Shown here: in pieces, positions 3,081-43,773 of the stretch
Position numbering within the stretch: the first letter of the stretch is position 1
Layout: each line of letters opens with the position of its first letter
Assembly: GCF_002929845.1 (NCBI RefSeq)
Contig: NZ_PJJS01000050.1
Coordinates: forward strand, 112,139 to 176,138
Length of the DNA stretch: 64,000 nucleotides
Direction of reading: 5' to 3'
Source: Cryobacterium sp. M96
Lineage (GTDB): Bacteria > Actinomycetota > Actinomycetes > Actinomycetales > Microbacteriaceae
Notes under the pieces: model-generated
What the model saw: only the letters and a program-made list of their open reading frames with translations
What the model was told of the DNA's origin: nothing
Database searches by the model: none
Program-made: the position numbers and the translations under genes

Positions 3081-3352
3081 CTGCCTCTGTTCGGCGTCGA
3101 ATTCGTTCACGGCGCAGCGCGGGGCGACCGCTGATTGCCCGAACCGCGTAAGCCCTGCGGCATATCCGTGGCGCCTTGTGGCTTAGTCAGGAGATACGTC
3201 TGGCCACGCCGGGCATCCACGCCGGTTCCGCACTGGTCCGGGGCGGCAGGTTCACGAGGGCGACGGATGTCCTGAGTTGACCACACGCGCGGGCTTGGCC
3301 GGGGCCCATCCACCCCGGGGGAGCCAGGGGCGTCAACCGGCTCGGTGGGCTC
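3081..3352. other. Intergenic region between convergent citE and gpx
   Basis: 272 bp with no credible gene on either strand. The only recognisable item is a 14-nt solitary half-arm of the 89-bp palindromic element (3095-3108). No strong T-tailed terminator hairpin was found. Confidence 0.6.
3095..3108. repeat. Solitary half-arm of the 89-bp palindromic element
   Basis: CGTCGAATTCGTTC is identical over 14 nt to the right arm of the element copy at 8118-8206. It lies 15 bp after the citE stop codon. It may be a remnant of a decayed copy. Confidence 0.5.
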
Positions 3353-8117: not shown

Positions 8118-8206
8118 CAAACCAATTCGACGGAGATTCTGGCCTAAATCCGGTTTTCCGGCCGGTTTGGGCCGGTTTTCGGCAGAATCTCCGTCGAATT
8201 CGTTCG
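8118..8206. repeat. 89-bp palindromic element, copy 1
   Basis: The arms share an 18-nt perfect inverted repeat, AATTCGACGGAGATTCTG at 8124-8141 and its complement at 8183-8200. The arms extend outward as CAAACC (left) and CGTTCG (right), where one position differs. A T/G-rich centre with repeated CCGGTTTT lies between them. The same structure with the same length and arm spacing, reversed, occurs at 43685-43773. It sits between the PBP gene and convergent prfC and could fold as a terminator-like stem. I see no target-site duplication. Confidence 0.8.
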
Positions 8207-32213: not shown

Positions 32214-32246
32214 GAACTAGCTCGGGGCGATGGGCCGCGACGCGGT

Positions 32247-32858
32247 CTAGTCCTGGCGTTTCACCCGCAGGACCCGGAAGCCCTTGCTGATGGAGTGCCG
32301 TGAGGTGCTGAATTCGGCGGGCAGGTCGCCGTCGAGCCAGCGCTGCAGGGAGTCGGAGCCGAGGTTGCGCTGCACGACGAGCCAGGCATCCGAACCCGGC
32401 TCCAGGCGCGGCAGCCAGGTACGCAGCATGGTGTGCAGTTCGGTTTTGCCGACCCGGATCGGGGGATTCGACCAGATGGTGCGGAACGCCACGTGGGCGG
32501 GCATCTGATCGGGCCGCACCGCGGTGATGTTGGTGAGGCCGAGCTCCTCCGCGTTCAGCCGCACCAGGTCGAGCGCCCGCTCGTTGACGTCGACGGCCCA
32601 GATCGTGGCGCGGGGTGAGGCGAGGGCCAAGTGCAGGCTGATCGGACCCCAGCCGCAGCCCAGGTCGAGGAAATCGCCGCCGGGCGGCGGGGTCGGCGCG
32701 CTGTTCAAGAGCACCTGGGTGCCGGTGTCGATGTGCTCCGGGCTGAAGACCGAATTGGCTGTGGTCAGCTCGCGCTCTTGGCCTCCCAATCGAACGGTCA
32801 CCTGGCGGAGTTTCAGGGTGCTGTCGGGTGCCGGGGTGAAGTAGTGGTCGGAAGGCAT
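32247..32858 (-). CDS. RsmC/RlmG-type rRNA (guanine-N2) methyltransferase
   Basis: A 203-residue class I SAM methyltransferase. Motif I is FLDLGCGWGPISLHLA, motif IV is IWSNPPIRVGK, the NPP[F/I] signature of base-amino methyltransferases. It is a single-domain form, lacking the N-terminal pseudo-domain of E. coli RsmC. The target, 16S or 23S rRNA guanine, is inferred from the family. It is convergent with dapF and divergent from hflX. Confidence 0.85.
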   Translation of the reverse strand: MPSDHYFTPAPDSTLKLRQVTVRLGGQERELTTANSVFSPEHIDTGTQVLLNSAPTPPPGGDFLDLGCGWGPISLHLALASPRATIWAVDVNERALDLVRLNAEELGLTNITAVRPDQMPAHVAFRTIWSNPPIRVGKTELHTMLRTWLPRLEPGSDAWLVVQRNLGSDSLQRWLDGDLPAEFSTSRHSISKGFRVLRVKRQD

Positions 32859-43684: not shown

Positions 43685-43773
43685 CGAACGAATTCGACGG
43701 AGATTGTGGCAAAATCGGTCCTGGATGTCCGGGAAAGCCCGTTTTAGCTCAGAATCTCCGTCGAATTGGTTCG
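43685..43773. repeat. 89-bp palindromic element, copy 2
   Basis: The left arm reads CGAACGAATTCGACGGAGAT and the right arm is its near-complement ending in TTGGTTCG. It has the same total length and arm spacing as copy 1 but is inverted relative to it: the GAATTC-type arm is now on the left and the CCAATT-type arm on the right. When copy 2 is reversed, well over half of the 40-odd interior bases also match copy 1. It lies between sseB and lhr. Confidence 0.8.

Follow-up and report, generated by a model that had tools for sequence, protein, structure and literature searches.

What is a short palindrome that occurs twice in one stretch of Cryobacterium DNA: the trace of a mobile element, a signal at the 3' ends of mRNAs, or a site that acts as double-stranded DNA? 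The window (the whole stretch analysed, 64,000 nt from the 3.3 Mb draft genome of a glacier Cryobacterium) contains copy 1 at 8118..8206 on the + strand, between the convergent genes for a penicillin-binding protein and release factor RF3, and copy 2 at 43685..43773 on the - strand, between the tandem genes for an SseB-domain protein and an Lhr-type helicase; the length of 89 bp, the coordinates and the opposite orientation are all as originally predicted. In copy 1, the left arm core AATTCGACGGAGATT, of the CC type (8124..8138, + strand), and the right arm core, of the CG type (8186..8200, - strand), enclose an interior with phased A/T patches (8139..8185). In copy 2, a CG-type core (43691..43705, + strand) is followed by an interior that also has phased A/T patches (43706..43752) and by a CC-type core (43753..43767, - strand).

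When copy 2 is reversed, 69 of the 89 positions equal those of copy 1, and the interiors, which had been predicted to align with well over half of the bases equal, match at 25 of 43 positions, compared with ~11 after shuffling of the interior (25 was not reached in any of 10,000 shuffles). The pair ranks first among the inverted repeats of the window (90 nt, 78%), where there are 4 matches to the arm at up to 3 mismatches, against 0.27 expected. Each copy is flanked by two genes, none of which encodes a transposase, and the predicted lack of one holds for these four.

Two other sites in the window bear on the history of the element. At 3093..3108, GGCGTCGAATTCGTTC is an apparent core-deleted remnant, the corresponding gap of C. 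sinapicolor (L098) containing two full copies; a similar signature occurs at L233. The site at 32220..32253 (- strand) is free of the element, and C. sinapicolor (L074) has a copy there, with a difference of ~115 bp; the element either never inserted at this site of the window or has since been deleted. A second palindrome family is present at 3176-3286 (- strand, ~111 bp, ends GTGTGGCCAACTCAGGACATCCG) and also at L098, L149, L167, L175, L210, L215 and L235, with 16 copies among the loci collected.

Size and distribution of the family

The window's genome contains 250 exact matches to the 15-nt arm AATTCGACGGAGATT and 104 copies in which two arms have exact 12-nt cores; the original prediction, which had described a two-copy element and proposed a search of the genome for more, understated the case. 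Exact-core copies are present in 19 of 57 genomes of the genus and absent from the other 38, with numbers per genome from 0 to 104 (the richest have 104, 99, 96 and 48), and at least one 13-nt arm core is found in 27 of the 57, five of which have just one. Of 398 genomes drawn evenly from the taxonomic family, 4 have arm-pair copies, all of them Cryobacterium. Named hosts among the at least 97 stretches matched are C. shii, C. algoricola, C. sinapicolor, C. breve, C. cheniae, C. cryoconiti and C. fucosi, and the matches listed further include Cryobacterium strain HLT2-28, a MAG and Glaciibacter superstes. Viral contigs yielded no exact match, and no earlier description of the element in Cryobacterium was found in the open-licence literature, a Cryobacterium genome paper and a REP survey included. 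In one single-contig genome (G065, 83% complete), GACGGAGTTT replaces GACGGAGATT in many arms, in some copies on one side only, which is perhaps a diverging recognition variant.

Near-invariant arms at a fixed distance

We collected 266 distinct copies, 100 of them from stretches of the window's genome, with no more than 3 mismatches in either arm and 4 in both together; most of the stretches had entered the set via an exact arm or an exact arm pair. The inverted arms are ~22 nt long, and the distance between their starts is 62 bp in 233 of the 266 copies and 61-64 bp in 260 (63 in 20 copies, 61 in 5 and 64 in 2). Among the few others, two copies have a spacing of 72, and 57, 69, 70 and 71 occur once each. 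The three copies at 69, 70 and 71 are all from the window's genome, where they persist, and look like insertion-sequence scars. Lengthening by whole helical turns was considered as a general rule and rejected because three of the five copies at 69-72 are scar-like, leaving only the two at 72.

Both 15-nt arms are exact in 191 of the 266 copies, a set chosen in part by exact cores. Among contexts from the window's genome taken by one exact 15-nt arm (187 distinct, plus one at an edge), the opposite arm was exact in 158 and differed by one letter in 16 and by two in 2; in the remaining 11, it was not recognised. The interiors of the copies from these stretches have a mean identity of 0.46, that is, more than half of the positions differ. 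The outermost letter of the arm alternates between C and G. The asymmetry that had been predicted to be inherited, with CCAATTCG on one side and CGAATTCG on the other, is common and follows no rule: in 116 copies, there is one arm of each type in 71, both are CG in 27, both are CC in 13, and 5 show other combinations.

The interior keeps helical phase, not letters

Between copies, the letters of the interior are near chance (mean identity 0.43, versus 0.41 for column-shuffled interiors). The A/T content of the interior, however, oscillates with a best period of 10.0 bp and in a register that is fixed to the arms: all 232 of the 232 spacing-62 copies are in phase (coherence R = 0.967), and R is 0.965 in a set of 25 copies in which every pairwise interior identity is below 0.5. 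Read from the left arm, the copies with other spacings are in phase in 5 of 5 cases at 61, 20 of 20 at 63, 1 of 1 at 57 and 2 of 2 at 72, the last two being longer by one turn; the spacing-64 copies (both of these and one from the held-out genomes described below) are out of phase in this reading. At period 10, single copies have a mean power of 1.46, versus 0.24 for shuffled interiors and 0.22 in 231 flank stretches.

The held-out test comprised 75 listed copies (of 83 counted) from six further genomes. All 65 copies of standard length were in phase, including the 38 that were new to the reference set (38 of 38, versus ~0 for shuffled interiors), and of the 10 copies of other length, 9 were in phase when read from the left arm and all 10 when read from the right.

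At GC positions of the interior, C/G swaps number 1164 and transitions 499: composition is kept, not letters. Within the A/T patches, AA/TT makes up 81% of the A/T steps, versus 54% in the flanks, and TpA 8% versus 14%, which amounts to a pattern of phased A-tracts. The second palindrome family offers an internal control: in 9 copies of the same length, the letters of the interior are conserved and the 10-bp power is 0.29, versus 1.46 for the 89-bp element. This is near background, and the phase is therefore not general to such repeats in these genomes. With hundreds of natural copies, comparisons at shared sites and this control family, the constraint on helical phase, as opposed to letters, is unusually clear.

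Location behind genes and the RNA explanation

A location at the 3' ends of genes had been raised as a possibility, with orientations and distances to stop codons to be counted, and the copies do sit there. Among the 100 copies of the window's genome, with genes called by a simple script of our own, 51 lie in convergent, 38 in tandem and 3 in divergent gaps, with 3 more that overlap a gene and 5 at the edge of a stretch; in these stretches, gaps of 100 bp or more that lack the element are convergent in 9 cases, tandem in 29 and divergent in 22 (convergent versus divergent, copies versus gaps, Fisher p = 2e-10). Neighbouring stop codons are a median of 90 nt away from the copy. In an initial sample, which covered 132 copies from many species, 47 positions were convergent, 53 tandem, 9 divergent, 11 overlapping and 12 at an edge, compared with 62, 148 and 75 for all convergent, tandem and divergent gaps. 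Orientation relative to tandem transcription is unbiased (14 same, 16 opposite), and the genes beside eight copies in divergent gaps showed nothing suggestive by eye.

The short distance to stop codons and the placement between convergent genes would suit an RNA element, namely, a bidirectional terminator or 3'-end stabiliser with a 22-bp mRNA stem made from either strand, and each of the two window copies is indeed predicted to form a strong stem on either strand (z -7.2 to -8.2). Nevertheless, we consider this explanation improbable. The arms hold one sequence instead of pairing: in the 266 copies, the arms of which were partly selected by the search, 98 changes affect one arm (5 of these at arm positions 4-10, TCGACGG), and both arms change identically in 10 cases and differently in 5. 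The interior shows no covariation. At symmetric interior positions in 116 copies, pairing was no better than in column-shuffled interiors, bar a few scattered values, and among 861 pairs of interior positions in 232 copies, the 12 above z = 3 (~1 expected) formed no helix, high values of this kind being possible through the relatedness of copies; an interior hairpin and local stems around the A/T patches were rejected on these grounds. The stem of the two window copies is followed by TTCGTTCG or TTGGTTCG, without the T run that follows the G+C-rich hairpin of an intrinsic terminator, and a search of Rfam at copy 1 returned no family at or above the cut-off. Furthermore, no RNA explanation is known to us for an A/T rhythm of 10 bp within a loop that stays unpaired.

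A longer unit and the case for mobility

In the window's genome, a subfamily of copies occurs at unlinked loci, with interiors up to 91% identical and with flanks in common too. The longest of these copies span ~330-420 bp and have 19-nt terminal inverted repeats near GATGAGTGAGTCCTGATCG, located ~130 bp to the left and ~110 bp to the right of the core. Terminal inverted repeats without coding capacity (the latter judged from the size of the unit), as in MITEs, are thus present in one subfamily and in the window's genome only. Among 187 core hits (both strands, some stretches repeated), 11 extend to both ends and 87 have almost no extension; in many copies, the core is intact and the outer part of the long unit is unrecognisable. 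In relatives, the long form was hardly seen in a search of DNA of the genus (best 12 candidates per genome).

A dispersed subfamily within a unit that has inverted ends makes it credible that the element spread as a miniature transposon or another non-autonomous element, and this part of the original prediction stands. The RAYT that had been named as a possible source, next to a Tyr-transposase, is not supported, and neither is a target-site duplication. The RAYT or Y1 transposase domain (Pfam PF01797) was detected in 0 of the 57 genomes of the genus by a search that did detect it in 5 of 14 genomes used as controls, and RAYT-driven mobility was rejected on this ground. In 90 copies aligned on the core, no offset or length of a target-site duplication exceeded a few copies in excess. 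An autonomous partner with the same ends was found neither among the 13 end matches in the window's genome nor among the best 12 candidates per genome in the genus.

Two other candidates were examined. Integron attC sites, which also combine conserved ends with a variable middle, were rejected because the copies are dispersed singly and their ends differ from what we take to be the attC boxes. A dedicated gene between close pairs of copies was likewise rejected: 12 such intervals encode housekeeping-looking proteins (presumably acetyltransferase-like, ornithine-cyclodeaminase-like and prolyl-tRNA-synthetase-like products, among others), none of them transposase-like by reading.

Insertion sequences with ends GGCTCYCCTGCTG, which we take to be ISL3-like from a translated end, adjoin an arm at L001, L005, L008, L011, L052 and L229, and several contigs of the window's genome stop where such an insertion sequence meets an arm. 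At L004, a different insertion sequence adjoins an arm, with an end that presumably encodes an IS481-type integrase, and L024, L149 and L161 contain scar-like remains of insertion sequences.

The dispersed subfamily with its common longer unit and terminal inverted repeats, as well as the patchy copy numbers (0 to 104), could also be taken as signs of a purely mobile, selfish element, either REPIN-like or a miniature transposon, in which a putative transposase pairs the ends 62 bp apart. If this enzyme must join ends at that distance, each copy would be born phased, bendable and of the right length, with no benefit to the host. We regard such a purely selfish origin as unlikely: a transposase, an autonomous partner and a target duplication were not found in the searches made (PF01797; best 12 candidates per genome), and the fate of copies at shared sites, described next, argues against it as well.

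Persistence of copies at shared sites

The comparison with relatives, in which empty sites had been suggested as a check, revealed differences in presence and absence between species. In 28 unselected same-site comparisons (those in which the second stretch had not been brought in through that site; a small and partly redundant set), the copy was intact in 13 and absent in 15 (9 distinct absent sites), and no site was half-decayed. In the 13 shared copies, the arms are 99.0% and the interiors 66% identical. Thus, sites are either intact or gone; turnover is real, yet the surviving copies hold their arms.

A larger set of 72 same-site pairs (13 of 85 having been dropped for length or spacing, and some pairs not being one-to-one) gave identities of 98.4% for the arms, a value that is inflated because most of the loci were selected via exact arms, 62% for the interiors and 43% for the near flanks, ungapped; the 28 unselected comparisons and the 187 contexts with one exact arm are the fairer tests. 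When one interior of each pair was inverted, the match was 35% instead of 62%, and inversion of the interior by a recombinase was rejected for this reason. The same-site partner of window copy 1 is in the MAG LF-bin-465 (L067) and that of copy 2 in C. sinapicolor (L082).

We compared the phase of real partners with a neutral simulation in which one partner was mutated with the spectrum of the flanks down to the observed identity. The simulated and real values were 1.4 and 7.4 below 50% identity, and 3.3 and 7.8 at 50-65%, and of 142 directed comparisons (71 pairs), 140 gave a stronger phase for the real partner than for the simulated one. The share of A/T-to-G/C among the changes is not reduced in same-site pairs, at 0.71 in the interiors and 0.62 in the flanks, which differ in base composition. 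In some same-site pairs, the interiors are unrelated (identity 0.26-0.42), and such near-chance interiors may result from replacement or conversion.

The original prediction did not note that the arms, the 62-bp distance and the 10-bp A/T rhythm outlast the drift of the interior at shared sites. This retention of arms, distance and rhythm while the letters drift is unlike a merely decaying miniature transposon. For the selfish explanation, the copies missing in 15 of the 28 unselected comparisons are in its favor, but selection at birth leaves arms of 99% identity beside interiors of 66% in shared copies unexplained, as it does the lack of a half-decayed site among the 28 and a phase beyond that of the neutral simulation. 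Past mobility, as indicated by the dispersed relatives and the long unit, could nonetheless account for part of the constraint, through transposition.

Glaciibacter and Cryobacterium share copy sites, namely, L129/L036, where the copy is inside what we take to be an xylB-like (xylulokinase-like) gene, and L068/L120, where it is behind a presumably glyA-like gene. These common sites point to a great age of the element. Copies less than ~1 kb apart (L098, L212, L055/L093 and L052/L089) often have all or half of the interior in common, which suggests that they were duplicated locally or underwent gene conversion.

A candidate site for DNA bending or wrapping

The reading we prefer, at a probability of roughly 0.48, is that a putative protein bends or wraps double-stranded DNA at the 89-bp core, which would be kept as its site in a REPIN-like population of elements. 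The core would act as a double-stranded DNA site and not mainly as an RNA hairpin. With 62 bp, or six helical turns, between their starts, its ~22-nt inverted recognition sequences would lie on one face of the helix, and A-tracts every 10 bp would bend the intervening DNA. A putative protein, probably a dimer or a wrapping complex, would hold both arms and thereby produce a tight loop or wrap. We infer from the sequences both this binding and the resulting fold, as well as a structural or topological role, which might consist in chromosome organisation or in absorbing supercoils behind genes.

The element leads a REPIN-like life without a RAYT, having spread non-autonomously and being kept in some species and decaying in others. 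In the three richest genomes, 79-88% of the exact arms lie within exact-core copies, compared with 31-45% in five poorer genomes and 53-73% in other copy-poor ones. The low share in poor genomes suggests that some lineages have lost a trans-acting factor; in terms of the bend or wrap site, lineages with few and broken copies would have lost the putative binding protein.

A bolder version, which we consider doubtful, is that an architectural protein specific to the Cryobacterium and Glaciibacter lineage wraps the cores in the manner of a sequence-addressed bacterial nucleosome. There would be two invariant docking arms six turns apart, with the interior selected only for rotational phase; about a hundred wraps behind genes would serve as topological punctuation, and loss of the protein would lead to decay of the sites. 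If the bend or wrap reading is true, there should be a findable protein, present with intact cores and missing where the cores decay, in culturable cold-adapted bacteria. More generally, the family provides a handle on the open question of whether REP, BIME and REPIN elements persist for transposition, for RNA ends or for DNA architecture.

Another kind of wrapping site would be a strong site for DNA gyrase, comparable to the Mu site or to BIME-2 of E. coli, with the phased A/T DNA wrapping the enzyme. According to the available text of PMC6379681, G/C content is phased in the gyrase motif of E. coli, which has a 36-bp centre and 47-bp periodic flanks, and gyrase favors BIME-2 and regions 3' of transcribed genes, a location similar to that of the Cryobacterium copies behind genes. 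The layout, however, is reversed: an aperiodic ~36-bp centre with periodic ~47-bp flanks was not found, the Cryobacterium element having a periodic centre and flat flanks (231 flank stretches), and its near-invariant arms have no counterpart in the motif as described in that text. Moreover, gyrase is stated to be essential in nearly all bacteria (available text of PMC12324340), yet 38 of the 57 genomes of the genus are without an exact-core copy. A gyrase site is therefore highly improbable in our estimate, and the bend or wrap site for a putative protein remains the reading we prefer.

Relation to known interspersed elements

The family is an interspersed palindrome that is REPIN-like in behaviour and not a member of the REPIN/RAYT group. 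The GI REPIN of P. fluorescens SBW25, as described in the available part of PMC3116915, has inverted invariant 16-nt ends, with 71 bp between their first residues, and a variable interior, and is extragenic (101 copies aligned); singlets are remnants, which arise also by insertion or end-to-end deletion, and insertion sequences target REPs. The Cryobacterium element shares with it an invariant inverted pair of ~16-mers at a fixed distance (62 in 233 of 266 copies), a variable interior, about a hundred extragenic copies and singlet remnants. It differs in that its interior is phased in A/T and shows none of the compensatory changes that are common in REPIN interiors (same source), and in that PF01797 was not detected in the 57 genomes of the genus, whereas REPINs have a RAYT.

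BIME-2 and REP elements, in the available parts of PMC6379681 and PMC3733652, are likewise palindromic and intergenic, located at 3' ends with enrichment in convergent and tandem gaps, and in some cases intragenic. The arms of the Cryobacterium element, in contrast, are not GTAG/CGTC hairpins, its geometry is fixed at 62 bp, and its periodic part is central. On reading the arm, we found no GTAG/CGTC REP hairpin (8-9 bp stem, 4-5 nt loop for CGTC, unpaired end tag): its only self-complementary stretch is CGAATTCG, without a REP-like loop, and CGTC is internal to the arm, not an end tag. Correia elements (CREE) of Neisseria are also small and have inverted repeats; according to the available text of PMC2649163, their core is conserved and can bind the DNA-bending protein IHF, whereas the interior of the Cryobacterium element conserves phase and length only.

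Some copies are inside reading frames and in frame, at L033, L038 and L054, in a gene that we take to be methyltransferase-like, and at L036 and L129, in the presumably xylulokinase-like gene. Rickettsial RPE and intragenic REPs, in the available text of PMC3733652, similarly lie inside reading frames, to which they add ~20-30 codons. The wholly intragenic Cryobacterium copies (two sites, five loci) are of the form with a spacing of 63 instead of 62, so that the frame is kept.
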